DNA of 64,000 bases, from contig JAODTK010001010.1 in assembly GCA_026419785.1 (NCBI GenBank), forward strand, positions 119,059-183,058, read 5' to 3'. Below are positions 895-57,969 of the stretch, in pieces. Positions within the stretch are counted from its first letter, which is position 1. The number at the start of each line of letters is the position of its first letter. A program made the position numbers and the translations under genes. Source of the DNA: Sclerodactyla briareus. Its lineage: Eukaryota; Echinodermata; Holothuroidea; Dendrochirotida; Sclerodactylidae. The notes below the pieces were generated by a model. That model had not been told where the DNA came from, searched no databases, and was given only the letters and a program-made list of their open reading frames with translations.

Positions 895-936
895 CAGACT
901 CTGGTGTAACACCAACACAACCTCCTGTCGACGATG
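895..936 (+). CDS. Mini-exon: Ser/Thr/Pro-type linker between modules
   Basis: A 42-base segment lies between a strong acceptor (tttttttttccag) and a consensus donor (gtaagt). Read in phase 1 on both sides it gives DSGVTPTQPPVDDG, an acidic, proline- and threonine-containing linker with no stop. Its length is an exact multiple of three, so it could be skipped or included without changing the frame, like the domain exons downstream. No domain is expected in so short a piece. The assignment rests on splice signals, phase and composition only. It is the most 5' exon I can support. Confidence 0.5.
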
Positions 937-1449
937 GTAAGTCATCCCGCACTATGGAACGAAAATCGAAAAGCTACAAAGAGAGATCGGGATCACTCAG
1001 CTGCTCATTGAGGATCTAGCATAACTTATGTAATTAGCATATACTGTGCGCAAAATTCATTTTGGAAGATCACACTTTCACTGCATCCTGCTGAGTTTCA
1101 ACCTAATTGCATGTACTGTTTAGAGTGAATGTGATGAACAGACAATGATGACTGCTGGAACTGTTTACCCACAGCTAAAGTATGGGTAGAGCCCTGGAAG
1201 ATCCTGTATGAGTATATTTACAATTATCTTCATGTCAGCATGGAGGCGGATAGGTAAATATCCATCCCTTGAGGGAAAGTTTGAAATTTTCTAACAATCA
1301 CATATTTTGATTGAGGAAGGTCGCTGATTACACTGCATATCCAACTTCATGAAAGAAAGCAACTCGTTTTTCAGCTTTAAAAAAAAATACTGCTATTGGT
1401 CAAGTTCATACCCAGTATTCCCACTATATCTTTCTTTACATCATCCTAG
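937..1449 (+). other. Intron
   Basis: Between a gtaagt donor and a tcatcctag acceptor. Nothing else is recognised apart from a short A run near 1380. Confidence 0.5.
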
Positions 1450-1690
1450 ATTCTCCCGTGGTCTTTTGTGGTCCAGACATCACTGTGACAGCACCATTCC
1501 TCAGCTCTGGATTGAATGTGACCTTTGACCCCTGCACAGCTGTCGATAACTCCGGGGTCGCTACCCTAGTCAGCAGCTCCCACAATCCGGGCGCATTCTT
1601 CCCCCTGGGGGTGACTCCGGTTACCTATATCTTTATAGACCCAAGCCGAACTTGGCTTTGGTTCATTCAACATAGAGGTCATTGAGGGAG
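1450..1690 (+). CDS. HYR (hyalin repeat) exon 1
   Basis: Encodes one HYR module, an Ig-like beta-sandwich of about 80 residues found in adhesion and matrix proteins. The start reads SPVVFCGPDITVTAP, matching the family opening 'PPVI-x-CPxDI'. The middle reads FDPCTAVDNSGVATLVSSS, and the tail has FFPLGVTPVTYIFIDPS, the 'FPVGxTxVxYxFxD' strand. Between about 1645 and 1656 the frame slips by one: the original frame stops at 1685, while the shifted frame gives FGSFNIEVIEGG, the normal HYR end, directly before gtaag. The length of 241 bases is one more than 80 codons, consistent with a single extra base. Acceptor and donor are both phase 1. Confidence 0.82.
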
Positions 1691-3258: not shown

Positions 3259-3516
3259 CTGATCAGGAGCCTCCGGTGGTAACATGCCCTGACGACATTT
3301 CTCTGGAGGCCCCCCCGAATAGTGAGGGTGTTCTCGTACCCCTCCCTTCCTGCATGGCGACGACAACACAGGCATCGTTTTCCCCATTGCACAAAGCCAT
3401 CCGTCAAGCGCTTTCCTGCCCGTCGGCAACACAACTATCACCTTCATTCACCTTCAGCGACATTTCTGGGCTCATCTCTGAAGGATCGTATAACGTCATC
3501 GTGACTGAGGGAGGAG
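3259..3516 (+). CDS. HYR exon 2
   Basis: After a tatacag acceptor the frame reads ADQEPPVVTCPDDISLEAPP, a textbook HYR opening with the conserved CPDDI. The end reads FSDISGLISEGSYNVIVTEG before gtaagc, matching the last strands. Between them the open frame gives an unlikely middle (HKAIRQALSCPSATQLSP). A neighbouring frame there reads AFLPVGNTTITF, the expected 'FPVGxTxITF' strand, so two compensating one-base slips lie at about 3390-3405 and 3440-3455. The total of 258 bases is a multiple of three, so the exon looks open although its centre is read out of frame. Confidence 0.82.
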
Positions 3517-4552: not shown

Positions 4553-4679
4553 AGCATGCACAGTTACAACAGGGAAAAGGATTATTGGTGATTACAACTA
4601 TGGAGGGTACATGAACGGACTAGATAAGGTATAGTATTACTATTAGGACACCTATTGGTGTACCTGATTCAGGCAATTA

Positions 4680-5075
4680 TTTTATTCTTGGATGAAGTCA
4701 GAAACTAGCATGCTGGGCAGGGCATGTAGACCCCACTAGGTCAAATCAAGCTCATACTTGGTACGTAGCTTCCCCATGATGAGTACATGAACCGTAATGT
4801 TATGATGGGGTCTAGTCAAAGGCTCTCTGAGCTAATGGCACTAGTCTAGAATTTTGGGTCTGATCAAGTTTCATTCTCATTGAATGTACAATTTATCTGT
4901 TGTTTTTTTGGGTGTTCAGTGGGGAAATCATTTTTGTGAAAATGGGGGGAATTATAAAAAATATATTCGGTCAATTTTGGCTTGTATTCATGATTAACCT
5001 TGACGCCCACCTGAATGATGGATGAGTGCTCATACTAGGTATGTGGGTCCATTGTAACGATGGCAGTTTCCCCCA
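4680..5075 (+). repeat. Dispersed 'CCCATGATGAGTACATGAACC' family, partial copy
   Basis: Starts near TTATTCTTGGATGAAGTCAG and contains the shared phrases CCCCATGATGAGTACATGAACC-like, TCTGATCAAGTTTCA and GCTTGTATTCATGATTAACC. The same phrases appear at about 8.5-9.4, 9.9-10.6, 16.6-17.4, 49.5-50.5 and 63.7 kb. Confidence 0.65.
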
Positions 5076-5752: not shown

Positions 5753-6395
5753 CTGCATTTCTAGCTCCTACAAATAGTAGACAATGCATACACTGGCAAT
5801 TCAACAGTAACCAAGCTACAATGCTGGTCCCTATGAATCAGTAGACAACACTTGGGGCCCTATAGCCAACCGATGGACAATTAGGCTACAATTCTGGCGC
5901 CCACAGATAGACACACCTAACTAGGCACTAGCCAGCCAATGGACAATAAAGCCACAATTCTGGCCCCCACAAATAGTAGACACGCTAGCATAAGCAAACC
6001 AATGGACAATCAAGCTACATTTCTGGCCCCCACAAATAGTAAACAGTGTGTGCTAGGCACTGCATGGCAAGTCAACAGACATCCAAGCTACAATGCTGGC
6101 CCTCACAAATAGTAGACAACCCATGCACTAGCAAACCAATGGACAATCAAGCTACATTTCTGGCCCCCACAAATAGTAGACACCTTTAGGCACTACGTGA
6201 ACAGTGAACATCCAAGGCACATTTCTGGCCCCCACAAATAGTATACACCCCTAGGCACTAGCAAACCAATGTACATCCAAGCTACAATTCTGGCACCCCC
6301 AAATGGTACACACCCGAGGCACTGGCAAACCAATGGACATCCAAGCCACAAATTCCTGGTCCCGCACCAATTGCAGACACTGCTAGTTAAAGATG
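5753..6395 (+). repeat. Minisatellite, about 9.5 units of 62-73 bases
   Basis: Each unit has the form CTACAATTCTGGCCCCCACA, then AATAGTAGACACxxCTAGGC, then ACTAGCAAACCAATGGACAT CCAAG. Units vary mainly in the short stretch after GTAGACA. It ends about 55 bases before the first EGF exon. Confidence 0.9.
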
Positions 6396-6451
6396 CATTC
6401 CTCAGTGTTGGCGAAAAGCTGTGTTAACTTTACCGTTTGTTCCAATTTCAG

Positions 6452-6567
6452 AGGATAGCCCCTGCGACATCGACGGTGCTTGAATGGTGGCACCTGTGAG
6501 AGTCGGGGTAGCCAAGGATTTTTCTGTGTCTGCCCAACTGGATATTCTGGTATCATCTGTGAAGAAG
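6452..6567 (+). CDS. EGF-like exon 1
   Basis: Encodes one EGF-like module: DSPCDIDG at the start, then NGGTCESRGSQGFFCVCPTG and YSGIICEEG before gtaag. All six cysteines with EGF spacing are present (C-D-I-D-G-C, GGTC, FFCVC, IIC), as is the 'GxxCxC..GYSG..C' signature. One base is missing near 6475: as written, GAC GGT GCT TGA stops, whereas one added base before TGC restores CLNGG. The 116-base length is one short of 39 codons, which agrees. No obvious calcium-binding D-x-N/D-E start is seen. Both flanking introns are phase 1, so the module can be shuffled with HYR exons. Confidence 0.85.
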
Positions 6568-7582
6568 GTAAGCAGGTTTGGTTGTCATGTGAGATTTGTT
6601 CCTACTACTTTATTTTGATCGATCTACTAAGAAGGAATCCCATGGATTCAGAATTCCGATCGGGAAAACGGGACAAACCTGTGCCTCCTGTTTATTTTTT
6701 TTTTTAAAGAGTGCAACAGTCTTGGGATGAACACATTCCTAGTGGAGATTTGACAGAGACTTTTTAGACATATATAGCAACTGTGCAACAACGGTATTGA
6801 TTTGAGACATGCACAGGTGTATTCATTGGTGCTAAATTGAATTGCCTTAATGTGGGAAGCAGGTTGCAGGAGGATTATGCTAGTTTCTAATGCAACGGAT
6901 TTAAAAAAAAAAACTAAATGTGCCTTTTGGTATTATTTTTGGTATGTCTATCTTAGAGAATCGATCAAATCTACAATTTGTTGAGATTTTTCTTCGGAAA
7001 AATTATGGGGACCATTATTTCAGAAGCAGCTATAGATCAATTCCCCCCCCCCCCAAACCCACTTGAAATTCAGACCTGGTTTGGTGGAAATAGACAACAG
7101 GAAACATGGCATCAGTGTGGAGCAGTGTTGATATCGCTCTAACTAATTATGATGCTATTCATGTTGAGTGCTCAGTATCACCAACAGGAGTTCAAGTGGC
7201 GCTCAGACTGATCAGAGTGCAAAACTGAGCATGCTGAAAATGAATATAAAGAAAAAAATAGAAGAGGAATAAGAGCTGGCCTAAACCAGCAGTCCAAAAT
7301 CTGAAACTGTTGGAAACTAATTTAAACAAGAATTTATTAATATTAATCCGAGGCCCCATTCTCATAAATTAATGTGTTCCATTTTAGGTGCCCAACACGC
7401 ACTGGCATGAAACATGGAGCTAGGCACAAAGGTGTGGATGCAAAGAGCCACAATTACTGAATGGACGGCTCTCGCATGGGGAGGACAGCCATTTCTTTGA
7501 GTTTCCCCCACCCAGACCATGAACTTGCGATAGCTGACCCTATGTTCTCAGAGAAATGAGTGCACATTTTTCTACTCCACAG
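6568..7582 (+). other. Intron, nothing recognised
   Basis: Contains a C10 run near 7046 and A runs near 6902. No module or clear repeat family is seen. Confidence 0.45.
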
Positions 7583-7824
7583 TTGTGGTCCCGGTTGTTC
7601 GTGGTGCCCGGGGGGACTTGTATGTGAATACTAGAGCGGGGGAGAAACTGAGTACCACGGTGAATGGACGGAGCCAACCGGCCTCGGACAACATCACGGG
7701 AGCCACACTGCGCCTCCTCCATCCGCAGCTACGGGGGATTCTCCCGGTTGGGATGACCTTGGGTGTACCTCTTGTGTCGAGTACGGTGCGATCAGTGTTG
7801 CGACTCACCGTCTCCATGTTCCAG
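7583..7824 (+). CDS. HYR exon 3
   Basis: Acceptor tactccacag is followed by VVPVVRGARGDLYVNTRAGE, which has the HYR opening but with Cys-Pro replaced by Ala-Arg (GCCCGG where TGCCC is expected, possibly one indel). Then come SQPASDNITGATLRLLHP and GILPVGMTLG, the 'FPVGxT' strand. The last third is better read in a shifted frame, where VEYGAISVATHRLHVPG leads into the gtgagc donor in phase 1. The original frame also runs open through the donor, so the break is easy to overlook. A weaker HYR match than its neighbours because the first cysteine is lost. Confidence 0.72.
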
Positions 7825-9524
7825 GTGAGCAGGATGTGGAATCGGGGATATAATGATTGTCACTGGCCTCATTTATGTGGAAATTCACCCCTGACTAATC
7901 TGGTGATGAAATAATGCCCAAGCTTTCAATATTAAACCCAATCACTGAAAATCGGACTGATCTGAGTCCGTAGGCTTATGGATAGATACCTCAGCGGGTG
8001 TGACACACACTCATTACCCTGGGCATAGTGAGTCATTGTCAAAGATGGGTCATAAAATTATACACAAATTGATGCACTCCTCAGTCACTTAAAAAATTGT
8101 GACGGTGACTGTTAAGCTGGTACAATTCTCCCATTTGTCCTTGTGTGGCCATTAGTTGTCAGAATGAGTCAGGAATCACTAAGCCTTTTTGGCTTTCTAG
8201 TTTATCACTCTACATAGTCTAGGTGACATTACACCCCAGAGTCACTTTGTGACCGACCGAAAGGGAGAGTGATGCACATGTGATTCACTTTGAATCTGAC
8301 GATGACCCACATTTTCGATTCTGACCATGGCCCGGGGCGTCATAGAAGTGACAAATGCATTTTTACCCCTATAAAAAGGCTGCTGATCTCGTTGAATAAA
8401 TTGGGAGTAGGTGGGAAGGGTGAAGAATGGAAGGTGCCCACCATTACTTTGTGTCGACCTTTTCTACTATGAAGCATCAATTTACAAATGGTTTAGATAA
8501 ACGTATGAACTTGGTATAGATTACCGGGGGCCTATGTTTTGTTTTGGTGTAAATCTGGGTCATTCAGGGGCCAAAAATTTTATGATTTTGTGCAAACAAA
8601 ATTTTGCCCAATTAACTTATTTGACATGTTAACTTGAACCCCACTTAAATGGATGAAAGCTCATACTGATTTGTATGTTCCCCATAATGGTACCACACAC
8701 TCCATTGTTTTGGTTACCCAGAATCCTTGAAAATCCTAAACATGGTACCGTAAACTCCAGAAGGTTGGTCCGATTAAGTTATTATTGGTATGTCTCTTCT
8801 ATGGTGAGTATTCTGCTTCTTACTCGTTGAACCCCCTTTCAAGTATCACAACGAGGGTAAACCCTATTGTACAGGAGTATAGGAACCCTATTGTGTTTGG
8901 GTGTAGAGTGGGTGTCTTTTTTGTTCCGAGTATGAGCTTCATCCATCTGAGTGGATACTTGTTTACATGTTTACAAGCTAAATTTGGCCAATAATATTGA
9001 TTTTTCCACAAAATTTCTATTTTTGACCAAAAAAGACTTCCTCTGTACTCATAAAAAGAGCTATATAATAAATCTCAACTTAATCAGACAAATCATTCTG
9101 GACTTAACGTGTTTACAGGATTTTCATACTTTGACCTCATACTGAGACGGGTGAGTGAGAGGTCAACAGAAGCAAGTTGGAAAATCCTGGTAAATTTTGA
9201 TAACGTTCAAATGCTTGGTCTGATTATTGTTGAACTTCGTGTGTAGATTTCTTAAAGATACAGGAACCCTATTGCTTGCTTGAATCTAGATAGCATCATT
9301 TTTTTTTTGTGGAAATTTGTCAGACATGCCATGTTTTTTCCATAAGAGCTGGTGCATTTTGCCCTTAGTCCTTGGTTGCTGCTGGCCGTAGGTCGTCAAA
9401 AAGAGTCAAGGAATTACTTAGCCTCCGCAGCCTCTGCTGTTTCTCTCCCTATTTTGTTGGGAAAAGCCATCAAAGTGGCCTGTTCCTGTTCACAAATTGT
9501 CCTGCATGCTCAATTTTTTTTCAG
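7825..9524 (+). other. Intron with dispersed repeats
   Basis: Holds the tail of one ATTCCTTGAC-family repeat (GTCAGGAATCACTAAGCC, about 8160-8205) and a longer copy (about 8490-9440). Nothing coding is recognised. Confidence 0.5.
8490..9440 (+). repeat. Dispersed ATTCCTTGAC-family repeat, long copy
   Basis: Shares ATGGATGAAAGCTCATACTG, CCCCATAATGG, TGGTCCGATTAAGTT, GGAACCCTATTGT and the ending GTCAAGGAATTACTTAGCC with the copies at 16.6-17.4 and 49.5-50.5 kb. The middle itself contains repeated sub-blocks. Confidence 0.65.
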
Positions 9525-9781
9525 TGGTACGACACCACAGAGGGTCCTTGATGTCCTCACATACCACTGCCACCCTCACTTGGTTCAGGAACCGTCTCTG
9601 TGACATGGACGGAGCCCACCGCCACTGATTTATCCGGTGTTGCCAATCTGGTCTCTCTCTCAGTCCTCACCACCTGGTCTGACTTTGAACCTGGAACGAC
9701 GACGCGGTTGGTTTTACTTCTTCACTGACGGAGATGCCAATTTTGATATGTGCGAGTTCTTTGTCACCATTGAAGCCTACA
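9525..9781 (+). CDS. HYR exon 4
   Basis: The acceptor attttttttcag is strong. Three frames must be joined by eye: TTPQRVLDV (opening 'PPRVLDCP', with the cysteine lost to a slip), then TVSVTWTEPTATDLSGVANL and FEPGTTT, then WFYFFTDGDANFDMCEFFVT. These are the HYR strands 'VTWTEPTATDxSG', 'FxxGTT' and 'YxFxDxxxNxxxCxFxVTI' in the right order. At least two single-base breaks, near 9585-9605 and 9700-9720. The donor (A|gtattg) is weak compared with the other exons, so the 3' edge is less certain. Confidence 0.75.
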
Positions 9782-10620: not shown

Positions 10621-11119
10621 TTCTCCCATAGAAATTAAATGGGAGCTACAGTAAGCATGTGCATGTTATGTTAGTTACTTGCAGGTCCTGTGGAATTGTG
10701 AACCCTATTTTGTGAGTGCGACTGCTGATGCTTTTAGATTCGCCCAGGTGGAATGTGAGCCCCTGAACTTCAAATTTGGAGCTTCAAACTCATTTTGTTT
10801 TTGTGTTGCTGAATGAACTCCTCCATGTGCATGACGTCAGTTTGAATGATTTTGCTATTGAATTTCCAAGTAATTGCAGTTCATCCCCCTTCTTGAGTGG
10901 AAACTACAAGTGTGAATTTCTCAAGGTTGGTGAAGGCCTTCTTTTTTGTTGTTCTTTCAAAAACATTTGACTTCCCTCAACCTCAGATCCCCATTTTTGC
11001 ATTTCCGAAATGTCGTTTTTTACTTTGACTTGTATGAATTATTCTATTTGCTCACCTCCATGTCTTGAAGACATTGCACAAGAGAATCCTGTCCTCACTT
11101 TCAGGTTCATCCAAAAGTA

Positions 11120-12760
11120 AAATTCAGTTCGCATGTGGATTTTCTGTTGTCACTAATCAGTACGAACTGGACACTACCCCGTCCTCTCTCGTCTCGTTGG
11201 TTAATGCTGTTGGACCGAAGCAACGCTGTTGATATTATCTTCTTGGACTTTCAGAAAGCTCCGCTAAAGTCCCCATACACTTGTGTGCTCAAATTGGAGA
11301 GTTCTGGTGTGAGCGAGTTGGGAGATGCTCTTGCGCAGGCGTCACGGTCCCCCGCTGCTGGCATTTGTGACAAATTCTGTGCTGCTTGGGAATCCACCAA
11401 GTTTATCAATTGATTAACTTGGATTCTTTGAGAAACGCCCAGTCTTACTCCCTGCTGTTCAACATATAATTTCAAATCGGCCTTCACATAACGAAACACG
11501 TGTATATTTACTTCTGATTCACTGTATGCTAATAAATATGAACACAAGAGAAATTCGCGAAATGTATAACTGATCCACGTGTCATGTTTCATACGCACAC
11601 ATTCGAGATATCTAATATTTTTGGTAAGCTGGCGTAAATGAAATAATCCTCTTTAACTGTAACGTACTGCACCAAGAGCTGTGTTTGATTGGCTGGCACA
11701 TCCGAATTTTGCAGTCTGTGTGTGGTTGCATCAATTACCTGTTTATCTGAAGTTCTCATAGTTTGTTAGTGACTTGATAGTTTCGCTGTAATAATTTGAT
11801 AGATTTCCTTATTCATTTGCTAGAAACATCTGGTTCCTAACAAAGTTCTGCTTATCGACTGAATAATTTTGGCGCGCTCGAGCCTAACAGTAAGCCTATG
11901 GATCGGGACAAGCACGTGAGAAAGTTATCACATATGGACAATTGTGCAATGCCCGTGCTGTGACTCCGAACTGTCTCATTGAGACGTGAAAGTCCTCAGG
12001 TGTGCTCGAGGGTGGCTTCATAATAGGGAAAACGAGTTGTTTACCCCAGAAGGTCACTAGTGGCATTCCCAGTTAATCTTTCTTGGACCCCTACTGTTTC
12101 TGACTTACATTAGCGATCTTGATAATTCAGTGCAATTCATAGTGACAGTTTGCAGACACCAAAGTTGTACGGAGCAGTTTCATCTGACTACGATGTTAAC
12201 AATTGTTCAGAATGATCTTGACCTGATTTCCAAGTGTTCTTCTGATTGGCAATGTTCTTCAAACCTGGCAGTGTAAGTACTGCATGTTGTCCCCAAAATA
12301 GTAACGCCTCATTCAGTTTGAACTTGGTCAGGGATATTCTGTGGTGTACCGGAATAGATCTGGTGTGGTGCTTTGAAGGCTTGTTGAAACTTCCTAACCT
12401 GTGTGCTGAAGCGGCTAGGAAAGGCAATTGGTTTCTTGGTCTGATAAAGGGCATTTCACTTCTTGATAGGATATAGCTCTCAGACTCTTCAAGCAACTAT
12501 TGAGACCTCACCTTGAGTATCAGCCTAACGGCTTGGTCTAACTTCAATGGAGCTGGGCGGGTTCGGGGTGAATTGATCCAGGTCTTCAAAATTGTCCTGA
12601 TTTTGATATGACTTCTTTTGAGTTTCCAATGACTACACTCGTGGGCCCCCTTAAATCTTTTGAGGTACTCGCTGTAGATTGGATCTTCGGAACACACTTC
12701 TTCCCAAACAGAGTCATCAACTAGTGAATAGCCTTCCGGAAATGTTGTTATGTCTAGTAG
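11120..12760 (+). mobile_element. Decayed non-LTR retrotransposon (LINE) reverse transcriptase
   Basis: Three landmark pieces of a LINE reverse transcriptase occur in order on the + strand. VDIIFLDFQKAPLKSP followed by KLESSGVS (about 11228-11310) matches the palm motif usually seen as 'DVIFLDFxKAFDxVPHxxLLxKLxxxGVSG'. GPLLFLTYISDLDNS (12085-12129) matches the motif just before the catalytic aspartates. LRPHLEY (about 12499-12520) is the thumb/3' motif. The FADD box region (about 12150) is scrambled by indels, and no long frame is left. The arrangement resembles CR1/Jockey-group elements. About 600 bases between the first two motifs do not look like reverse transcriptase and may be an insertion. 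Certainly non-functional as written. Confidence 0.8.
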
Positions 12761-13182: not shown

Positions 13183-13405
13183 GAGTGTGACGCATCCTAC
13201 CTGGCCAGAGCATCACACTCTTTGGCTCTGGCCCCTCGTCCAGTTTTCCCCTGGCAGCTTCCCTGTGGCGATCGACCATCTGGCTCGTCCCTCACCCCAT
13301 CCCATTCTCCTCGCCCGTCGATGATTTTGATCTCGGTTGTCCCGGCCGACGTTTCTTACCTCTTCTCCGCTGGAGCTTCTGATACCTGTACTTTTGTGTC
13401 TGTTG
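13183..13405 (+). CDS. HYR exon 5 (degenerate)
   Basis: The acceptor ctccctcttcag and donor G|gtgagc are clear, and the last strands read VSYLFSAGASDTCTFVSVG, a typical HYR ending (compare 'YxFxDGAGNxxxCxFxVxV'). The first half is poor: ECDASYLARASHSLALAP carries only a cysteine of the CPxDI opening, and 'FPVG' is not found. At 223 bases it is the shortest HYR exon here, so besides frame slips it may truly have lost sequence. Called HYR on its C-terminal third, splice phases and place in the series. Confidence 0.6.
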
Positions 13406-13996: not shown

Positions 13997-14116
13997 TAAA
14001 CCCCTGTACATCCAGCCCCTGTTTCAACAACGCTCCTTGCTTCGGTTTAACGGTCGAGGCCTTCATCTGTCAGTGTACGGAAGATTACACTGGCAACTGT
14101 GGGCGAATGCCAATAG
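13997..14116 (+). CDS. EGF-like exon 2, intact
   Basis: This exon is exactly 120 bases with no break: NPCTSSPCFNNAPCFG, then AFICQCTEDYTGNC and GRMPIG up to the gtgag donor. Six cysteines have the EGF spacing (C-x4-C-x5-C, then C-x-C-x7-C), with the aromatic/glycine 'YTG' before the last cysteine. The usual 'NGG' is replaced by NNAP. Because it is intact at every codon it is good evidence that the locus is, or recently was, a functional protein-coding gene on this strand. Acceptor ttttgccacag; both splice sites phase 1. Confidence 0.88.
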
Positions 14117-16014: not shown

Positions 16015-16546
16015 TCTTCAGGCTTGTATGCAACAGGGGTTATATTGTGAGAATGGAAAAACTGCATCTATCATAGGTCCAAACCCCATTCAATACGATG
16101 TTCCTATGTGGAGTTATTGGCCTCAAGTTTGGTCATAATGCATGACGTCACCACAGGAAAAAACACAGGAAAATTATGTTTATGATTTGTTGTTTAATTT
16201 TTGTTGAATAAGTCAATGTAGCAGAAGTTTGTTCCCTGTTCTCTCACAAAGAGTAACCATCAACACCTATCAACCAACACAGCAATCTCTCCCATGGCCT
16301 AAATGCTTTTCGAAGTGAAATTTAATGTTGAATTTCAATATAAAAAAAGAAGTGTGCAGTGGTGTGCAAGTATGACATTCATTTATATTTGCATGATGGG
16401 AGCATTTCGAGCTTGTGCAATACCACATGTTTCACAATACTTCAAACTGCAAATGGGACTATAACTCCGCAACGGAAAGTCCTCATGAACTTCCGGTCCA
16501 GCCCCTGTATAAATCATTCTGCAGTTTTCTTTAACTAGTGGTCCTT
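16015..16546 (-). mobile_element. AAGGACCACTGCAGG MITE, inverted copy
   Basis: Reverse-complement of the elements at 33.05, 39.3 and 43.4 kb. For example, CATAGGTCCAAACCCCATT (about 16074) and ACCATCAACACCTATCAACC (about 16257) are the complements of their GGTTTGGACCTATG and GGTGTTGATGGT blocks. The right edge keeps GTGGTCCTT at about 16538-16546. Confidence 0.75.
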
Positions 16547-17439: not shown

Positions 17440-17561
17440 ATGCCCCACCTGCCTCAGAATACGTGCAAGAACGGAGGGACTTGTTTTTGAACAACGGGGG
17501 GAACGAGTTCCTATGCTTCTGCACCATGAAATACATGGCGTCGTATGCAGCGACGTGATGA
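17440..17561 (+). CDS. EGF-like exon 3 (frame-broken)
   Basis: Acceptor gtaatttttcag and donor A|gtaag frame 122 bases. EGF pieces lie in different frames: a 'PPCLR'-like start with TGC after CCACC, then NTCKNGGTCF, the most diagnostic part, then NNGGNEFLCFC. A final cysteine lies in the stretch before the donor. All six cysteine codons exist in order if two slips are allowed (near 17448-17455 and 17490). Without the first three EGF exons as guides I would rate this lower. Confidence 0.68.
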
Positions 17562-18959: not shown

Positions 18960-19214
18960 CGGCACCACTGGGCGACATTGAGCCGCTGTCATCCGGTTGC
19001 CCTGGCGATGTCCGGGTAACCTACCCTTCTGCTCTTTCACCCATGGTGTGACTGGGTCCACCCATAGACAGGTAACTCTGGGGCGCTTTCGACGGACTCC
19101 CAGTGTTGGCGCATGGAGATTCTCGCCTTTGTGGGACACTCCGATTGGTTTATACTGTGCTGACGAAAGTGCAAATTTGCTAGTGTGATTTGATTTTTGT
19201 AATTGTTTCTCTGG
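18960..19214 (+). CDS. HYR exon 6
   Basis: The opening frame reads APLGDIEPLSSGCPGDVRVT, with the conserved C-P-G-D. It stops at 19051 (MV*). After slips, the end reads CADESANLLV in one frame and CDFIFVIVSLG in the next, giving the normal 'ADESANxAxCDFxVIV' finish before the gtgag donor. The middle, including the tryptophan strand (GTGACTGGGTCC can be read as VTWV with one base removed), is recognisable but broken. The acceptor is acgttatag. Confidence 0.72.
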
Positions 19215-21440: not shown

Positions 21441-21554
21441 TCCTGCATGCCCATCCTTGCCTGAAACGAGGGTTGTGCCAGTTAGCCCCTGAGCTCACAT
21501 CCGGACGGCTATGTTCGTGCCTTCCTGGATTCACAGGACCAGATTGTGAGACGG
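21441..21554 (+). CDS. EGF-like exon 4
   Basis: Open over exactly 38 codons from gagctcag to the gtgagt donor: LHAHPCLKRGLCQLAPELTS, then GRLCSCLPGFTGPDCETG. Five of the six EGF cysteines are in frame with correct spacing (HPC, GLC, RLCSC, PDC). The first cysteine is missing in this frame but appears as TGC in the next frame at 21444, so a pair of small slips may have removed it. The alternative is a real five-cysteine variant. 'GFTGPDCE' is the classic EGF ending. Phase 1 on both sides. Confidence 0.8.
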
Positions 21555-36681: not shown

Positions 36682-38288
36682 GTAAAAAACAAAAAAACTT
36701 TGTTCATAACTCATGGAGCCAGGGTTCCCAGCATTCCAAGAGAATTAAATTCCATGGACTTCTTGATTTATATCAACTGGAGAAGAAGGGCAGGCCAATG
36801 CATGTAACTATTTGTGAAGTGGGAATGTGGCCTCATCCAAAACTGCATGAAGGACGAAGCAATTGCATCTGTATGTGTAACACCATATCAGCAAGTAAGT
36901 TTGTTTAAGAAATGCAGGGGAGCTGGGAGACGAATCCAGGTAGAGCAGCCTGGAGACGTATGGGGCATGTAGTATGTGTGCATGTATATGTGTACATATA
37001 GTATGTGTGCATGTAGGCTTGTGCATGTTTAGATGTGTAACATTATAGTATGTGTTGCATGTAGGTATGTGTGCATGTGGTTATGTGTGCAGGTAGTATG
37101 TGTGCATGTGGTAGGTGTACATGTAGTATGTGTGGCCTGTAGTATGTGTGCATGTGTATCTGTGCCATGTGAGTATTCGGGTAAGGTAGTATGTGTGCAT
37201 GTGGTATGTGTTGCGTGTGGATGTGTGCATGTGATGGATGTGTGCTTGTGGTATGTGTACATGCTAGATGTGTGCCATGTAGTATGTTGTGCATGTATAT
37301 GTTGCATGTCGTATCGGTACATGTAGTATGTGGGCATGTGGTATGTGTGCATGTAGTATGTGTGCATGTGGGATGGATACAGTAGTATGTGTGCCCATGG
37401 GTATGTGTGCAGGTGGTATGGTGCATGTAGTATGTGCCCAATGTGGGAGGTGACAGTAGTATGTGTGCAGTAGTATGTGTATGTGGTATGTGTGCATGAG
37501 GTATGGTGCTTGTAGTATGTGTGCATGTAGTAATCATCGCCAAAGAGGGCAATTACCTCCCATTTCTCAAATGGTGAGAAGCAGCCACCAGACTTGCTGG
37601 AGTCGACGATGGATAGTATAGAAAAAGTAGTCCGCAATATGTGTCTTACCAGACAAGCGTTCGTGGAAAAACCTGGATAGTTAATCCTTGTCCCTATAAT
37701 GTTGGGTGGTCTTATTAAATTGACACCCTTAAATATTACATTTCTCGTGGGGAGGGGGATGAAGAGAAAGCCCACAGCAGCTCATCAAGCCCTCCCATGA
37801 CCAAAGTGATAAATAATTTTTTAAACACACAAAAAAATGAATTTTCTGACAGTTCCGTAGAGGTTTGCAGCGCAGATGTCTAGGGCCAAAATTGTACACT
37901 CATTGCTATTTGGGGAGGCCATTTTGAGGGCACACTTACCTGGTTCCGACCTCGAACCCCCCCCCCCCCTCCCTCCCCACCACCCCAGACAAACTCTCAG
38001 CACGGCCTGGCGCCTGGCAAGGAGGTTACTGTAGGAGAGAGCGAGGCGAGAGCGATGAACACCTCTATATGTATGGTAGAGGCAACATAGTTCCGTTCAC
38101 CCAACAGCTAGCTTTGTACACAATTCTAATGTCATCAGGCTAAGCCGAAGCTGAACATACTCAGGTCCCACCCTCATACTTAACACGTGTCCTTAACGGA
38201 CATCCATCAATTCATGAAATTGACCTGTGATGAGCTGCAGAAGATTGCACTCCTTTAAACTCTTCTTTACCCTCTTTCATTCTCACAG
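36682..38288 (+). other. Intron with long TG-rich minisatellite
   Basis: Mostly the GTATGTGTGCATGTA repeat (36960-37540), with a C-rich tract near 37960-37972. No exon recognised. Confidence 0.5.
36960..37540 (+). repeat. (GTATGTGTGCATGTR)n minisatellite
   Basis: About 35-40 diverged copies of a roughly 14-15-base unit, GTATGTGTGCATGTA or GTATGTGTGCATGTG. Alternating purine/pyrimidine makes it prone to Z-DNA, and it yields long spurious open frames of His/Thr repeats on the minus strand. Confidence 0.92.
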
Positions 38289-38557
38289 CTGCCAGTACTG
38301 ACGTGGACCCCTCCCACCATCACGGGGGGTGCCCGTCTGACATCAGCCGTCCTCTCACTGGGCCTACCGAAATGTTCCTATTCCTCAGCTGGGACTCCGC
38401 CCACGGCCACGGATTGAGGAGCGGCGGCGGCAGCTAGAGCTACATGGAGGGACTCCATATGCGGCGAGCTTTTTTGAGGGGGTGACCATCATCCAATATA
38501 CTTCGGGGATGCTGCGGGGCAATACCGACACTTGTACCTTCAGGGTGACTGTTACAC
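38289..38557 (+). CDS. HYR exon 16 (block copy 1, first exon)
   Basis: Starts ASTDVDPP, then 'TITGGCPSDIS' with one slip, PLTGPTEMFLFLSWDS, and ends 'YTxGDAxGNTDTCTFRVTVTR' into C|gtaagt. In copy 2 (43073) the tail reads clean: IRYTFGDAAGNTDTCTFRVT. Differences between copies are nearly all single-base additions in this one (GGGGGG for GGGG, GCGGCGGCGGCAG for a shorter stretch, extra A or G), typical of insertion-type read errors. Length 269 against 260 in copy 2 agrees. The phase-1 C before the donor makes an Arg codon, unlike the Gly seen in most exons. Confidence 0.76.
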
Positions 38558-39335: not shown

Positions 39336-39868
39336 AATTATGAAGAGGCTTAATATATTAGATGCAGAAAACTGAATGCGTCAGTCCAAACTGAAGCTTA
39401 TATGAACTTCCCTTACAGATTTACAGTCTTTTGAAAGTCTGTGCGGTATATCGCCGCATGATCGAACTGCCATCCCATCTGCCCTGCAAACAATTTTGTT
39501 TTCTATTGAAATTAACACATTATTTTCACTCCAAAAAGCCATTTGTTTATGGGAGAGGACTGCTGTAGTGGGTGGGTTGGTAGGTGTTGATGGTACTTAG
39601 TGAGAGAAAGACAGCAGAACCTATGCTGAATGTGACTTATTCAACAAAATGAAAAGAATGAAATACATAAGATATTCCCTGTGTTGTCCATCTGTGATGT
39701 CATGCGTTATCGCGCAGTTGGGATTCTCCCCCAATTCCTGCATAATGGAACCAACTTTGAAGGCCGATAACTCCCACATAGGAACATCATATTGAAATGG
39801 GGTTTGGACCCATAGACACAGTATTCCATTCTCCAAGATATGACCATCCCAAGCCTGCAGTTGTCCTT
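39333..39868 (+). mobile_element. AAGGACCACTGCAGG MITE, copy lacking left end
   Basis: Same interior as 43420-43954 and the right end CCTGCAGTTGTCCTT. The left end is replaced by the neighbouring hairpin repeat. Confidence 0.75.
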
Positions 39869-42414: not shown

Positions 42415-42676
42415 CATTCATCAGTGACCCAAATCCCCCCATTATCTCGCGGGTGCCCTGACATATTGTCACCCGTCTGGCAAACCCCACTGACGTTGTG
42501 GTTTTGGTACATGGACAGAGCCCTCATGCCTCTATGTGAAGGGCACAGTTTCTTGACTGCTGCTCCATCGAGACGCGTTCCTAAGCAAGGTGTCGGAGAA
42601 AACCGAGAGGATCGAGTATCAGTATCACTGTACTGCCGTAATGTTGCGTCCCTGTTCGTTCACGTGACAATCACAG
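42415..42676 (+). CDS. HYR exon 17 (block copy 1, second exon)
   Basis: Begins AFISDPN after ttctttttcag, then 'PPIISRGCPD' in the neighbouring frame. The tryptophan strand reads 'VTWTEPS' only after joining frames, and 'TERIEYQ' and a CSFTVTITG-like end (CCTGTTCGTTCACGTGACAATCACAG) lead into gtgagc. At least three slips. The same exon in copy 2 (45001) shows the intended reading better. It differs from exon 16 in wording, so the block carries two distinct HYR subtypes side by side. Confidence 0.75.
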
Positions 42677-43072: not shown

Positions 43073-43332
43073 CTGCCAGTACTGACGTGCCCCCTCCCAC
43101 CATCACGGGGTGCCGTCTGACATCAGCCTCCTCCCTCACTGGGCCTACCGAAATGTTCCTACTCTCACTGGACTCCCTCCCACGGCCACGGATGAACGCG
43201 GTACAGTAGAGCTACTGGAGGGACGCCTCACTCTCCAGCCACTTTTCTTGGAGGGGGTGACCACCATCCGATACACCTTTGGGGATGCTGCGGGCAATAC
43301 TGACACTTGTACCTTCAGGGTGACTGTTACAC
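43073..43332 (+). CDS. HYR exon 18 (block copy 2, first exon)
   Basis: Opening ASTDVPPPTITGC, then SLTGPTEMFLLSLDS. After slips near 43110 and 43205 the tail is LFLEGVTTIRYTFGDAAGNT and DTCTFRVTVTR, open to the C|gtaagt donor. Compared with block copy 1 it is nine bases shorter and reads better. Its FLEGVTTIRYTFGD strand fills the 'FPVGxTxVxYxFxD' position with a Glu in place of Val. Acceptor ttcattctcacag is shared with copy 1. Confidence 0.82.
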
Positions 43333-45000
43333 GTAAGTCTGCAAAACTGGCCTTTAGGAAAATTGCTAGCACTCATCATCGATTCGTGATGGTTAGTGAT
43401 AGAGTACTGGTCCCAAATTAAGGACCACTGCAGGTGAATTATGAAGAGGCTAATATATAAGCTGGAGGAAAACTGAATGCGTCAGTCCAAACTTGAAGTT
43501 TATATGATTTCCTTTACAGTTACAGTCCCCGTTTGAAGTCTTGCATGTTGTATTGCGCATGATCAAAATGCATCCCATCTTGCCCTGCAAACAATTTTTG
43601 TTTTCTATTGAAATTCATAAATTCTTTTCACTCCAAAAAGCATTTGTCTAATGGAAGAGGACTGCTGTCGTGGGTTGTAGGTGTTGATGGTTACTTTAGT
43701 GAGAGAAGGCAGCAGAACCTCTGCTAAATGTTGACTTATTCAACAATGAACTGTAACATAACCACGTCCAAGTGCAACGTCATGCGTTATTGCGCAGTTG
43801 GGATTCTCCTCCCAAATTTCTCTGCATATGGCCTAAACCTTTTGAAGGCCAATAACGCCACGTAGGAACATCATATTGAAATGGGGTTTGGACCTATAGA
43901 CACAGTATTCCATTCTCCAAGATATGAACCCATCCCCAGCCTGCAGTTGTCCTTCAACACCGCAGCATCGATGAGCAATGGAGCTGAAGCACCTTGCCCG
44001 AGGCACGTCAGAGAAGCTGATCGGCAATATCCAGAGTTGCAACCTCACAAACAATTTATAGCCCTACTGACTGACCGAGCTCATCGTTTCACACTTTGGT
44101 CAATTAGGGCTCGGAATGTATTTCAGCCCTCAGCTGCCCCATTACTACTGCCAGCAAGTTTTTTTGGTCAAGGGATCCACCCCCAGCAAAGCCCTAGATG
44201 TTGGGCCACCATTAGGGTATATTCTAAGTGGCAAGGCACCTGCAAGATCAAGTATAAAAGAGCTGAATTGATGCATTTTAGCTAAATAAAAGTACACTAA
44301 GTTAATCAGTTTCCCTTCCACCCAATGTTTGTATGATTTAATTTCATTATAGTGTTAAGCTCTGATGTATTGCAACCCACAATGCAATATCATGCAATAA
44401 TTTAGATGTTTCTCATTTGCACATACATTTTTTTGAATCATTGAAAAATGTAGCTTCTTTGAGGGGGGAATTAATGCTTTGGTGGGCTGATAGGTGACTT
44501 TAGTCATTAAATTTAGTGACTTGTTATAACACTGAAGAAACACAAAAGATATTTGCAGAATTTTAAAGTTGATTGACACTATGAAACAATGAAATACATA
44601 GAAAATTCTCTTAATTGACTCATTGAGTCATGAAATTTAGTAGCCTAGAGGAAAAAAAAACACACACACGATGTCCTGCAGAAGGCTGAAGGTATTTGAC
44701 ACTATAAAAACAATCGAATGCATAGAAGATTCTCTCTATTGTTTAACATGTGACATCACCCATTGTGTCCCTATTTTCTCGTATATGGCCCTAGTTGATA
44801 TTTAGTAGAATGAAATCACACGGAGCCTCTATCTTTTATCATGATTACCATTGTAGCTTTTGTAGTTTTTATTTGATCTGGCTATTGTCTTTCAATACAA
44901 GCTCGGTGCAAGATCCAAACTGTGTATTTTTACCAGGTACTATCGGTCAGTGACATGATCTTGTTTTGTAATTTGTACTGCACTTTATTGCTTTTTTCAG
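43333..45000 (+). other. Intron of the second block copy
   Basis: Holds a MITE (43420-43954) and sequence shared with 39870-40205 and 41840-42414. This is the compact, probably older arrangement of the intron. Confidence 0.65.
43420..43954 (+). mobile_element. AAGGACCACTGCAGG MITE, best-preserved copy
   Basis: 535 bases from AAGGACCACTGCAGG to CCTGCAGTTGTCCTT. The two ends are inverted repeats matching at 14 of 15 positions. No open frame for a transposase; target duplication not clear (TTAAGG on the left, CCTTCAA on the right). Confidence 0.85.
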
Positions 45001-45257
45001 CATTCATCAGTGACCCAATCCCCCCATTATCTCGGGGTGCCCTGACGATATTGTCGCCAGTCTTGCAAACCTACTGACGTTGTGGTGTTTGTAACATGGC
45101 CAGAGCCCTCAGCATTTGTCGTGGATGCTTGGTTCCCTGACTGCCGCTCCAGCGAACTCGTTCCTAATCAGAGGTGTCGGTACCGAGACGATCGAGTATC
45201 AGTTCACTGACGAGGCCGGTAATAATGCTTCCTGTTCGTTCACGGTGACAATCACAG
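45001..45257 (+). CDS. HYR exon 19 (block copy 2, second exon)
   Basis: Starts AFISDPIPPLS in one frame and 'PPIISGCPDDIVASL' in the next; then 'VTWPEPSAFVVDA' and LTAAPANSFLIRGVGTETIE-type text. The end reads EYQFTDEAGNNASCSFTVTI into gtgagc. That tail is the clearest HYR signature in the block: Y-x-F-x-D-E-A-G-N-N-A-S-C-S-F. Slips near 45022, 45080 and 45125. TNLTD and GNNAS give possible N-glycosylation sequons. Confidence 0.82.
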
Positions 45258-45978: not shown

Positions 45979-46215
45979 AGTACATGGACGTGACGACCCC
46001 GCATAACGGCATGTCCCGATGACATGATAGTAGAGGATCCGCGGGGATTTGCCGCCTGGATCCCACCCCATGCGCAGCGATACTGAGGGCACGTCCAACT
46101 TACATCTGGCCAGAGACGGGCGTTGACAATTCCCGAAGGCGTCACCGTGATCACCTATGGTTCCAGGATGAAGCCCGGAACAACGCGACATGCGAATTCA
46201 GTATCACAGTCGTAT
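45979..46215 (+). CDS. HYR exon 20
   Basis: Acceptor cctctcaacag, donor GTA T|gtgag, 237 bases (79 codons). HYR text in mixed frames: 'YMDVTTP', then CPDDMIVEDPRG, 'AWIPPHA' for the tryptophan strand, 'LTIPEGVTVITYGFQDEARN', and NNATCEFSITVV. Although the length is a multiple of three, no single frame is open throughout, so slips compensate (near 46000, 46090 and 46160). TIPEGVTVITY replaces the usual FPVG hairpin. NATC gives a glycosylation sequon. Phase-1 T before gt makes the next codon start with T, again unlike the Gly-type boundary. Confidence 0.76.
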
Positions 46216-48042: not shown

Positions 48043-48290
48043 CCCAAGATGTTACGACATCACCCCTTCCTGAGATTAATGAATGCCCCAAGGATATTCA
48101 TCCAGACAAACCCAATCGTCGCATGGACACATGTCCGACAGCCACGGACGACAGCGAGGGGCCAGTGACTCAGCTGTTCGGCCCCCAGATACCGTTCGCA
48201 GATTCCCGGTCGTCGAACCGTCGTTTCAACGTGTTTGAGGATACTTCGGGTAACAGAGCGTCGTGTAACTTCCCGTCATATTCAACGTAC
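48043..48290 (+). CDS. HYR exon 21 (divergent)
   Basis: After atttccacag one frame stays open for 83 codons: AQDVTTSPLPEINECPKDIH, then CPTATDDSEGPVTQLFGP, then a shifted stretch, and FEDTSGNRASCNF at the end. C-P-K-D-I, 'DSEGPV' and 'FxDTSGNxASCNF' are HYR landmarks. The expected 'VIFNV' strand (GTCATATTCAACGTA) is one base out of frame, so the frame stops at 48291. No consensus donor is found near there; the nearest, ttag|gttagt at about 48327, is in another phase. The 3' edge is therefore unsure. A tryptophan is absent. Confidence 0.7.
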
Positions 48291-49504: not shown

Positions 49505-50470
49505 ATATTCCTTGACGAGTCAGAGGAATCTATTTGGCGTCCACGTCGTGAGTGTGTGTTGTGTGGGTGTGTATGTGTGTGTGTGACGCCCAGCTGTACA
49601 CACGATAACTTATCAGGTTTGAGTCGGTCAAGGCTCCATACTGGTATGTGTGTTCCCCATGATGAGTACATGAACCCTATTGTTTTCTTTGGGTCAGGTC
49701 AGAGTCATCTGAGTTACCAGAGGTATAAGGTCTGAAAAACCTGTGTTAAACACGATAAGTCCGAGATGGTTGGTCTGATCAAGTGAAATTATGTGTACAG
49801 CTTTCTTATATGGGGAGTACAGAACCCTATTGTTTTTGGTTCAGGTCGGGAGTGAATTTTGGTCGAAAATGGAAATTGTGAAAAATTTCGATATTTTGGT
49901 GGCCAATTTTTTTGGCTTGTAAACACGATAACTACTGCGACCCCACCCAGATGGATGAAGCCCATATTGGTCTGTGTGTTCCCCATGATGAGTACCTGAA
50001 CCCATTTGTTTTTGGGGTCAGGTCAGAGATCATCTGAGGTCACCAGAAGTCGAAGTCTGAACACCTTGAAACTTCGTGATCTGATAGTCCCAGAACGGTT
50101 TTGGTCTGATCAGGTTGAAATTAGGTGTGTATCTTTCTTAGGGGGAGTACATGAAACCCTTTGTCTTGTAAAGGGTGGGTGAAATGAGGCCTCATACTCG
50201 GTTTGCTGTATTCCCCATGATGAGTACATGAACCCTATTTGTTTTGGGGTCAGTCGGAGGTCATCTAAGGTTACCTCCAGAGTCTGAAACCTTGAAATTT
50301 AGTGTGTAGCATTTTCTTACCAAGGTACAGGAACCCTATTAGTTGGTAAGGATTAGGAAAATGTGCCCTAAGGAGTCTGATTACTATCTCTCATTTGGTC
50401 GTGGGTCTGGCTATGGGTTGACCCCCCAAGAAAAAAAAAAAAACCCAGTCAAGTAATCACTAAGAGCCTT
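49505..50470 (+). repeat. Dispersed ATTCCTTGAC-family repeat, most complete copy
   Basis: Starts TATTCCTTGACGAGTCAGAG followed by (TG)n and ends GTCAAGTAATCACTAAGAGC. The inside has three sub-units, each with CCCCATGATGAGTACATGAA or a variant, a CACGATAA phrase and a GATCAAGTGAAATTA-like phrase. The start is complementary to the end (ATTCCTTGAC / GTCAAGTAATC). Confidence 0.75.
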
Positions 50471-52155: not shown

Positions 52156-52409
52156 TGGACAACACCTCCCCAACTGTTCTCAACTGCCCAGCAGATTAGC
52201 AGATATCGTCCGGGGATTCTTCCGTCCAGGACGGCATTGGTACGTGGGCCATGAAGATGCGCCGTTGACGCTGAAGGGATGGTCACGGGTGGTGGCCGGT
52301 CCATCACAAACCCATGGGACTGTTTGACGTTGGGACGGAGACCATTCTGTACATGTTTGAAGACGAGGCCGGGATCAGGCAACTTGTTTTTCACCGGGAT
52401 GGATTCTTG
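52156..52409 (+). CDS. HYR exon 22
   Basis: Starts VDNTSPTVLNCPAD after caacaacag, with C-P-A-D, then stops in this frame (GAT TAG). Other frames continue with 'TWAMKDAPLTLKGWSRVVAG', and LFDVGTETILYMFEDEAG, which matches the 'FPVGxTxVxYxFxDxAG' strand well. The end (GGCAACTTGTTTTTCACC) should give 'GNLxCxFT', but the second cysteine is not seen. Donor TTG|gtgag. Three or more slips. Last HYR module in the window. Confidence 0.76.
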
Positions 52410-54830: not shown

Positions 54831-54854
54831 GGGGGGGGGGGGGGGGGGGGGGGG
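54831..54854. repeat. G24 homopolymer
   Basis: Twenty-four consecutive G; potential quadruplex or a consensus-length uncertainty. Confidence 0.85.
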
Positions 54855-55446: not shown

Positions 55447-55698
55447 ATTGTCTTGGTAGAAGCTCTGGCAGATTTTGATGGTGACATCGCATTGGAATGG
55501 TCACAGTACCTCCTCAGTGAGGTTACAGGCTACACGATACAGAGGCTGGTCACGGCCAATGGGAGACCCGACCCTCAGATCCCTCACCCTCAGTCATCGG
55601 GCCTAATAGGACCGACGTCGTCAACGTGGACATGGCCACTGGACTGAGGGTGTTGGCAACCCTGGGACAGGGAGCGCCCAATCCGGACCCTAATCCTG
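55447..55698 (+). CDS. Fibronectin type III-like exon
   Basis: Acceptor attttacccag and donor CCT G|gtagtt. The first frame reads VLVEALADFDGDIALEWSQ, then YLLSEVTGYTIQRLVTANGR. The 'L-x-W' strand and the 'ExTGYxIxR' strand are the usual FN3 landmarks. It stops at 55647; one base earlier the second frame reads VIGPNRTDVVNVDMATGLRV and LATLGQGAPNPDPNPG, compatible with the later strands. So one slip lies at about 55590. No HYR or EGF signature. I call it FN3-like and not certain: it lacks the typical 'LxPxTxYxxxV' core in clean form. Its presence marks a change of module type on the 3' side. Confidence 0.55.
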
Positions 55699-57924
55699 GT
55701 AGTTGAAACATAACATGAAATAAGGGGGTGGTTGATCATCCTAGTGCGGACCTGTGGACCATTTCGCAGATCGAGCTATTCAAACTTGAGATTTTTTGAA
55801 GTATTTTTGGAATCATAAGGATTACACAGAGAAAGCAATATGAGTGGTGCCTATGACATCCCTGGAAGGGGGGGGGGCAATCCTGTCGAAAAATGAATCA
55901 TAGAGTGACTCAAAATAGTGACCTCCGCCAGCAGAAGGTGAGGTCAAAGGCAGTAGCTGATGGGATTGCTACTGCTTGGCTGGACCCATGATTACTTGTC
56001 CACATACCCTCTACTTTAGTACACTAAATCCCTATAAACATTAGGAGGATGATAGCCCATGGCAACTCCGCTGTGAGTTCCATCACAACGGCAACGTAGT
56101 GCGTACTCATACAGGACTAGCCGGGGTCATTTTGAGAAATAATTAAAAACATGTGTAAAAAAGTGTCTGATTTTGAATACATGCACTCAGCCATTAAAAT
56201 AACCCACAGTGCAGTATGATCTGTATAGAGAGCCCGGCGTGTGTAAGCATTGTCCGATTGAAACGTGTCCTTGTAACAACTAGAGTATATTTTAGGATGG
56301 CTCAGCATGTGTCAGCTTTGCCTGCCGATATGCCAAAGGAGTGCATATGCAGTATGTCTATTCATACGAGGCATGTTACAAACTGATGTACAGACCCGTA
56401 GTGGTAGATTGGCTCTGTCGGCGGAAATTCATGTAGCACGATTACTCCAGAGGCAGCAACATAAATGAGCATGAAATTGTGCTCTTTTGACGGCCACATT
56501 ATTGTATGAACTCAAATTTTCACTCAAGATGGTTCTGGAAAATTTAGAATGGTTAGGGATGCTAGGTTAAAATGTCTGGTGTTAGTATGATTTCGCCATT
56601 TATAAATCACTTTCTCGAATGCCAATGTTACTCTGACTTGATATATTACAGGACTATTATAGATGGTTGCGAAATAACAAACGCCGACCATATGACTGGG
56701 ATTAGCCAATCCGAAGGGTGTATCCATCAAATTTTAAGCGGAGAGTTGGGAGTGTTTGGAACATGGGATTGTTGTAGAAGCCATCAAGGGTATTTCCTGT
56801 CTGACCTCTTAGATTTTAAAGGGTCAAATTAACTTGCTTAAGACATTTTTTTTTTCCTCTCTTTCACCTACAATTGCCCCCTTAATTATGACCGTGTTAG
56901 AGCCAGGACTGGTAACAATATGTGACAAGTGTCAAAAACCTGCACTCACTCTCCCTATTTCTATGCAGAGCTGTATGCACGATACTATGAGCGGCAGGAG
57001 GATAACGGAGAGGGTCTCGCTTGAACTGGACAACCCCGGAGGACCCGAGCATCTTCACGACTAGGAGTTGTGGTCATTGCAGGGGGGGGGGATGCAGACC
57101 TTTGAGGGTTTCCCTCTACGGGCGATATCTGAAACGATAACGATACAGACTCCTCCGCCAGGCCAGGAAACGGAGATAACCAATTTCTGCCTTTGCTGAG
57201 TTACCAGTTTCGAGAAAAACGCAGCGAAGGTTGTACCACCTGTTCCAAAATTCAAATATTCTGAACAGAGTTGGTTTCTGATATCCGAAAGTTAGTGTTA
57301 TGTGTCTGTGCTGTGTGTGTGCAGCTTGTAGGCGCAGGGGTGAACGAGGGGCTCATACTTATGTAATAGATATATGTTACTTAATACCTATCATATACCA
57401 TCATTTCGGGGTCTGATCTGAGGTAAAAACAGAGGGAGAAATTTTAATGTACAACTATGTTATGAGAAGTAAACAACCCTGACCGTTGTATTTGTAAAAA
57501 ATTTACCAGGGGTGTGTTTTTGGCGTTTTATCCTTTCAAATACCATAAATCTGCAATATCGTTCAGATGGAGCTCATTCATGGTAAAGATTGTTCCTCAT
57601 GTAGAGTACATGAGGCCCTATGTCTCGGAAGCTGGCCACCTTCAGGGAAATAAGAATATGATTATGTGCCTATGTTCTTCTGGACCCCTACTCACAAAAA
57701 CTGACCAATACTCCAGTAAGCTCACTAAACAGTTGAGATTGCTAAATGGAATTCTTTGAATAGCATGCAAACCAGGGATGGTCACAGTATTAAATTGGTG
57801 GATTATTATGACATAACAGTATCGTACATGACTTTTACATTGCATGTGGCACTTTTTCCTGAGCGTCACTAATCGATATCTGTTAAGCTAGTCCGAAACA
57901 TCGGCCTCCTGTGACTTTTCTCAG
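55699..57924 (+). other. Intron, one uncertain coding-like stretch
   Basis: A possible exon begins at 56969 (see next entry). Remnants of the ATTCCTTGAC-family repeat are at about 57320-57640. Otherwise nothing recognised. Confidence 0.4.
56969..57190 (+). other. Possible second FN3-like exon (uncertain)
   Basis: After a good acceptor (ccctatttctatgcag), phase-1 reading gives ELYARYYERQEDNGEGLA and then a stop. Neighbouring frames give 'VVVIAGGG' and AISETITIQTPPPGQETEIT. The composition is exon-like and GC-rich, but no domain signature and no consensus donor are seen. Confidence 0.22.
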
Positions 57925-57969
57925 GGGCTAAGTCCACTATTGTCGTGGATATCAACTGTCTTCTTGGTG
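57925..57969 (+). CDS. Possible 45-base mini-exon
   Basis: Acceptor gacttttctcag and consensus donor gtaagtc enclose 45 bases, a multiple of three. In phase 1 they read GAKSTIVVDINCLLGG with no stop. Both splice signals and the shared phase agree with the rest of the gene. The peptide has no known motif; it could be a linker, or the first residues of a domain continued in an exon I did not find. Chance occurrence cannot be excluded. Confidence 0.35.

Follow-up and report, generated by a model that had tools for sequence, protein, structure and literature searches.

The HYR and EGF exon array

The window, a stretch of 64,000 nucleotides from the holothuroid Sclerodactyla briareus (contig JAODTK010001010.1), carries on its + strand a row of exons encoding HYR and EGF modules, most of the HYR exons being interrupted by frameshifts or stops. 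We scanned the + strand against Pfam in its three plain frames, with stops written as X, as 63 pieces of 1000 amino acids spanning 1-63002. HYR (PF02494) exceeded its cut-off near 1.45, 26.4, 31.2, 43.2 and 45.1 kb and in two stretches at 27-29 kb; weaker matches, short of the cut-off, lay near 9.6, 22.4 and 38.5 kb. Open stretches submitted to Pfam by themselves gave E-values of 6e-15 at 28852-29097, 1.9e-13 at 1452-1646, 2.5e-12 at 31156-31401 and 9.9e-10 at 43179-43328, and open exons or open exon parts reached 55.8, 51, 47.4 and 39.1 bits against a gathering score of 21.7. EGF passed its cut-off near 6.5 kb but fell short of it near 21.5 kb. The remaining families at E ≤ 0.1 all stayed below their cut-offs; apart from three unrelated families, they were HYR- or EGF-related models covering those stretches. 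The minus strand returned no family at E ≤ 0.1 in the 36 pieces scanned of 63 possible. With a HYR profile built by bootstrapping from the window, a six-frame search yielded 29 matches at E < 1, every one of them on the + strand.

We also ran a frame-tolerant HYR scan under a relaxed and a stricter frameshift penalty, with the minus strand and the reversed sequence as controls. The profile was trained on the same window that it was applied to, so the scores are inflated, and the weight therefore rests on the controls and on the independent Pfam matches. With the relaxed penalty, 19 matches on the + strand scored above 18, while the minus strand reached at best 16.6 and the reversed sequence 15.8; the stricter penalty left 18 such matches, against best control scores of 14.6 and 15.8, respectively. 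The original prediction had listed 22 HYR exons, all HYR and EGF exons lying on one strand, and had expected profile searches in all frames to find them. The strand assignment was borne out, as the profile matches fall on the + strand only, above the minus-strand controls. The number is less firm: 19 HYR exons (18 with the stricter penalty) stand above both controls, and the rest of the 22 are one borderline case and two recognised by eye. Many of the listed HYR and EGF exons were matched by profile, but several broken HYR exons, taken alone, fell short of the PF02494 gathering score or gave no Pfam match at all.

In the first third of the window the HYR exons are scattered. The exon at 1443-1690, whose start is that of the domain, has a Pfam E-value of 1.9e-13, a scan score of 65.0, one break near its 3' end and a donor. 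The next (3259-3516) matches Pfam below the cut-off (0.031), scores 69.6, has a second-frame match at 3362-3448 and probably contains two compensating shifts. A probable, badly broken exon with approximate borders (7580-7850) was recognised by eye only, being under the scan threshold and having no Pfam match, and the broken exon at 9552-9771 (Pfam 0.0087, below cut-off; score 39.4-43.3) has no GTRAG donor. The borderline exon at 13249-13405 scored 15.8 under both penalties (13249-13395), which is not above the controls, and has a phase-1 donor. At 18980-19030 a possible exon start, recognised by eye, scored 13.9 versus 13.6 for the best minus-strand match and was absent from the matches above 13.5 once the profile was retrained.

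The exons at 22254-22477 (Pfam 6.7e-4, below cut-off; one break) and 23520-23750 (frame-tolerant scan; two breaks) both start at the domain start and have phase-1 donors. They are followed by a triplet of copies, namely A at 26309-26551 (Pfam 2.2e-06; one break), B at 27148-27388 (frame-tolerant scan; one break) and C at 28850-29098, which is open (Pfam 6e-15) with a non-canonical donor border. The exon at 31154-31402 is also open (Pfam 2.5e-12) and is bordered by AG and GTAAGG. Further along lie three more: 33799-34054, starting at the domain start and heavily broken (score 24.3-31.1; two to four breaks, one or two stops; no Pfam match), 34623-34881 (frame-tolerant scan; two breaks; no Pfam match in the pieces) and the heavily broken 36418-36681, which scored 20.6 with the relaxed penalty and 13.6, inside the controls, with the stricter one. 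The broken exon at 38289-38557 (scan; Pfam 0.035, below cut-off) is a recent copy of that at 43073-43332 (Pfam 9.9e-10), whose 5' half has one or two breaks, and the broken exon at 42415-42676 (score 19.4-27.4; no Pfam match) is a copy of that at 45001-45257 (Pfam 6.8e-08; frame-tolerant scan; two breaks). The last three, which have no Pfam match, lie at 45979-46215 (score 55.5; one break and one stop; the acceptor a crude pick), 48043-48272 (score 52.4; end without a GTRAG donor) and 52156-52388 (score 46.5-51.3; two or three breaks, one stop, no GTRAG donor).

All EGF exons found lie at 6.4-21.6 kb; beyond 22 kb the scans detected HYR exons but no EGF exon. The PF00008 gathering score was exceeded at 6459, 13999 and 21443, corresponding to exons at 6459-6563 (1.5e-06), 13997-14116 (open; 2.7e-4, 0.1 bit over the cut-off, and matched as an exon but not in the 1000-amino-acid pieces) and 21441-21554 (2.9e-05 as an exon, below the cut-off in the 1000-amino-acid piece). 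In the matched frame we counted five, six and five cysteines, respectively, in agreement with the earlier remark that the exon at 21441 is short of one. Four EGF exons had been proposed, and these three are clear; the fourth, at 17464-17548, is frame-broken in two places and is a probable EGF exon, scoring 15.3 versus 14.0 for the best minus-strand match, with no Pfam match in the 1000-amino-acid pieces. Simple EGF cysteine patterns gave three matches, all three on the + strand. The FN3-like exon of the original prediction was not recovered, as no FN3 family appeared at E ≤ 0.1 in the 63 + strand pieces.

The same 63 pieces contained no sushi, VWA, pentraxin, SEA or kinase domain within the window and no unrelated Pfam gene between the HYR and EGF exons. 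Rfam (at gathering scores) and tRNA scans of the whole window found nothing, and ten other long open reading frames had no Pfam match at E ≤ 1. In a search of viral_contigs for relatives, 10 stretches fitted a peptide pattern, 0 of 10 being confirmed by tblastn, and a 26-base pattern had no exact match. The stretches at both end points (895 and 57969) had no domain match; the one at 895-936, which sits on the + strand between an AG and GTAAGT, may be a short linker exon, judging from its letters, and the gene may extend beyond the window. A minisatellite, in which a 65-bp unit is repeated about eight times, occupies 5863-6380, just upstream of the first EGF exon.

Splice donors and exon phase

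With the ends of 20 HYR matches fixed by the scan, we sought GTRAG within -6 to +26 of each end and took 20,000 random positions as background. A GTRAG donor was present at 15 of the 20 ends versus 4.7% of random positions, and in a tighter stretch at 13 ends versus 2.0%; because several HYR exons are recent copies, these donors represent fewer than 15 independent cases. All 15 donors lie at an offset of 1 modulo 3, that is, in phase 1. The ends without GTRAG are 9771, 29097, 36680, 48272 and 52387, and at 36680 a GTAAA sits in the right place. Crude acceptor picks, which one of the 20 exons lacked, were in phase 1 in 10 of 19 cases (p = 0.065).

Correct splice sites had been claimed for every exon. 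This does not hold, since five of the 20 donors fail and the "open" exon at 28850-29098 is followed by TAGATC. The assignment of all exons to one phase class (1-1) agrees with the 15 HYR donors found; the acceptors are less clear. Exons in phase 1 on both sides can be duplicated or skipped without loss of frame.

Recent duplication of exon units

The HYR exons at 26.3 and 28.9 kb are 97.5% identical, and those at 27.1 and 26.3 kb are 96% identical over 132 bases. The downstream intron is common to the 26 and 27 kb copies and the upstream intron to the 27 and 28 kb copies. Further copied blocks were found at 38.25/43.04 kb (mostly exon), 39.3/43.4 kb (intron) and 41.8/44.4 kb (intron plus exon). 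In three sets of copies (26.3/27.1/28.9, 38.3/43.1 and 42.4/45.0 kb) a unit of exon plus intron has recently been duplicated, which shows that unit duplication has enlarged the array. Much of the divergence between the three near-identical exons of the first set is concentrated in one short patch, at about 26433-26460 and 27272-27298, the matching place in two copies, which could be a context-dependent error or a variable loop.

Other repeats were noticed outside the exons. A dispersed family, roughly at least 69% alike and present in both orientations, occurs at 33054-33611, 39336-39845 and 43437-43927 and inverted at 16019-16497; it is perhaps a transposable element. At 36958-37532 lies a long degenerate repeat array whose period is about 15 bp, and a short dispersed repeat with a CATGATGAGTAC core occurs at 4759-4821, 49642-49704, 49968-50030 and 50207-50253. 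The open frame at 11069-11410, in which Pfam found nothing, resembles by eye what we take to be a LINE reverse transcriptase motif.

Frame breaks, indels and substitutions

In the stricter run, the 20 scanned HYR exons contained 26 frameshifts and seven in-frame stops; 15 exons had at least one break or stop and five had none, but the match at 3264-3506, counted among the five, probably contains compensating shifts. The breaks per exon are Poisson-like (variance/mean 0.90), and since the counts are not over-dispersed, they do not by themselves demonstrate noisy patches.

The recent copies allow indels to be compared with substitutions, and we took the ratios from BLAST pairs and from simulations (60 values per pair at ratios of 8:1 and of 4:1, both assumed and not drawn from the literature). 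Of three pairs of copies at 38-45 kb, the first shows 63 substitutions and 47 indels between its members, the second 32 and 20 and the third 116 and 53, which correspond to 0.75, 0.62 and 0.46 indels per substitution. The simulated maxima for these pairs were 0.22, 0.24 and 0.19 at 8:1 and 0.39, 0.50 and 0.30 at 4:1, so that all three pairs exceed every simulation, and the indel-rich pattern extends to the intronic parts of the blocks. The ratios are lower elsewhere. The 26-29 kb copies gave 0.29, 0.26 and 0.20, values that the 4:1 simulations cover and that fall within the 8:1 range or at its limit; a tandem pair at 29.5 kb gave 0.08; and the 33/34 kb exon pair gave 0.31, above the 8:1 maximum of 0.23 and below the 4:1 maximum of 0.39.

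Four pairs, two of which have one copy in common, span both exon and intron. Substitutions in these pairs are fewer in exons (62 of 979 aligned bases) than in introns (133 of 1357, p = 0.003), whereas indels are not (37 of 979 versus 49 of 1357, p = 0.82). When each region is tested separately, the depletion in substitutions is significant at 26-29 kb (p = 0.035) and not significant at 38-45 kb (p = 0.089). In the exons of the 26-29 kb copies, nine of 13 substitutions are synonymous; these changes are partly non-independent (copy C was used twice), and a neutral fraction of 0.25 was assumed. In the 38-45 kb copies the count is nine of 28. An error-free living gene would purge exonic indels first and a pseudogene would not protect its exons from substitutions; errors laid over a constrained gene would fit both observations.

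The single-base indels do not concentrate in homopolymers: of 30 such indels in the 39/43 kb pair, six fall in runs of at least 3 bases, and the homopolymer signature of nanopore reads is therefore missing. A MAFFT alignment of four copies contained few copy-specific single-base indels; we think that this alignment converted indels into substitutions.

Discussion

Taking together the domains, their strand, the donor phase, the recent copies and the indel pattern, all read directly from the window, we put at roughly three in four (0.77) the probability that the window contains much of an animal HYR/EGF gene, possibly of two, which is intact in the native genome and whose frame breaks are mostly indel errors. 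The introns, the architecture and the known distribution of such proteins also point to an animal. The gene would consist of about 20 HYR and three or four EGF modules, one module per exon with phase-1 joins, in an array grown through duplication of phase-1 exon-intron units. In the genome itself the gene is most likely unbroken and spliced, its exons being joined in one predicted transcript, and most breaks would be insertion/deletion errors of a poorly polished, probably long-read, sequence, where we infer both the cause and the technology. Long-read errors are described as predominantly indels in PMC12263367, and, according to PMC12007338, the resulting frameshifts and stops may make genes resemble pseudogenes. 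The reading as error is supported because the indel ratios at 38-45 kb exceed the simulations and because the exons are depleted in substitutions but not in indels. Against it speak the Poisson-like breaks per exon, the lack of homopolymer bias, the few copy-specific indels of the four-copy alignment and the non-significant substitution depletion within the 38-45 kb pairs; moreover, copies A and B are frame-broken despite the near-natural indel ratio at 26-29 kb, and seven in-frame stops persist beside the 26 frameshifts of the 20 scanned exons. The central claim of the original prediction, an HYR/EGF gene hidden by frame breaks, is nevertheless well supported by the scans, donors and indel patterns, with the breaks probably being sequence errors.

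A single gene across 895-57969 is plausible. In a variant of this explanation, whose odds overlap with it, two or more adjacent HYR/EGF genes, also broken by error, would share the array; one such division would place the EGF exons in a part ending at about 21.5 kb and leave a HYR-only part from 22 kb. The restriction of the EGF exons to 6.4-21.6 kb would suit such a split, but strand and donor phase are uniform throughout, and no unrelated Pfam gene separates the parts in the 63 + strand pieces. We regard the split as possible, at odds clearly short of even.

If the locus were instead a genuine pseudogene in decay, accumulating indels and stops after an HYR/EGF gene had lost its function, the high share of damaged exons (15 of 20) and the seven in-frame stops would fit, and so would the fact that only one of the three triplet copies in the quieter stretch at 26-29 kb is unbroken. 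A neutral sequence is not expected, however, to have fewer substitutions in exons than in introns or mostly synonymous ones in its cleaner copies, and the indel-to-substitution ratio at 38-45 kb exceeds that of all simulated 4:1 and 8:1 pairs. The donors are also largely retained, which separates the two readings weakly. We consider decay unlikely. Quite unlikely, too, is a lineage-specific, fast-expanding HYR array in which units still duplicate, some are truly dying and are skipped in frame, and individuals differ in module number; if it were true, a varying module number might be fitting for a protein of recognition or adhesion that evolves fast. An unusually high natural indel rate in this species, with a living gene that tolerates or bypasses the breaks, would account for a high ratio in introns and exons alike without homopolymer bias, but it is very improbable given the near-natural ratio about 10 kb away (26-29 kb copies and 29.5 kb tandem pair) and the failure of the exons to purge frame-breaking indels where substitutions are purged.

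Under the preferred reading of an intact gene obscured by indel errors, the product is likely a long extracellular HYR chain with EGF modules towards its start, a hyalin-like modular protein of the matrix or cell surface, as judged from knowledge of the family. A relationship of HYR modules to Ig and FN3 domains, and a possible adhesive role, are described in PMC10263333 and PMC3723904. The open HYR exon at 31154-31402 gave a confident all-beta predicted model (mean pLDDT 90.4). Foldseek returned 955 PDB matches at E ≤ 10 for this model, none of them at E ≤ 0.001, and the top, weak neighbours include Ig-like, Rib, PKD and cadherin-type domains. A sequence search of solved structures with one open HYR exon gave three weak matches, the best with an E-value of 0.12.

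These results indicate that unpolished sequence can erase a large modular animal gene from annotation, as gene prediction would miss this HYR/EGF gene. Comparing indels with substitutions, and exons with introns, in duplicated units provides a reference-free test of error versus decay. The locus is also a further example of a large HYR/EGF array, one that bears signs of having recently grown through the duplication of exon units.

Among known HYR proteins, we rejected the choanoflagellate HYR receptor kinases (PMC10263333) as counterparts, no kinase being found in the 63 + strand pieces, and also a bacterial HYR array such as HycP (PMC3723904), as introns with canonical donors separate the modules here. 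SVEP1/polydom and SRPX likewise combine HYR with other extracellular modules, EGF-like ones in the case of SVEP1, as presented in PMC10129328 and PMC3091736; they differ by their sushi domains, and SVEP1 also by VWA and pentraxin domains, none of which was found in the + strand pieces of the window. The sea star footprint proteins Sfp5 and Sfp7 contain three and one HYR modules, respectively, and Sfp7 also two EGF-like modules, but both are distinguished by FAMeT domains in the account of PMC9382459. EBR1_5, a putative egg receptor of strongylocentrotid sea urchins, is similarly a surface protein with multiple HYR modules; PMC5521101 describes seven of them with a SEA and a transmembrane domain, in contrast to the 18-19 firm HYR exons here, where no SEA domain was found in the 63 + strand pieces. 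Sea urchin hyalin, a large adhesive extracellular protein of HYR modules (PMC9382459, PMC3723904), resembles the predicted S. briareus product in being a large extracellular HYR-built adhesive protein. As described in PMC3723904, hyalin consists of HYR modules only, whereas the S. briareus gene adds EGF exons.
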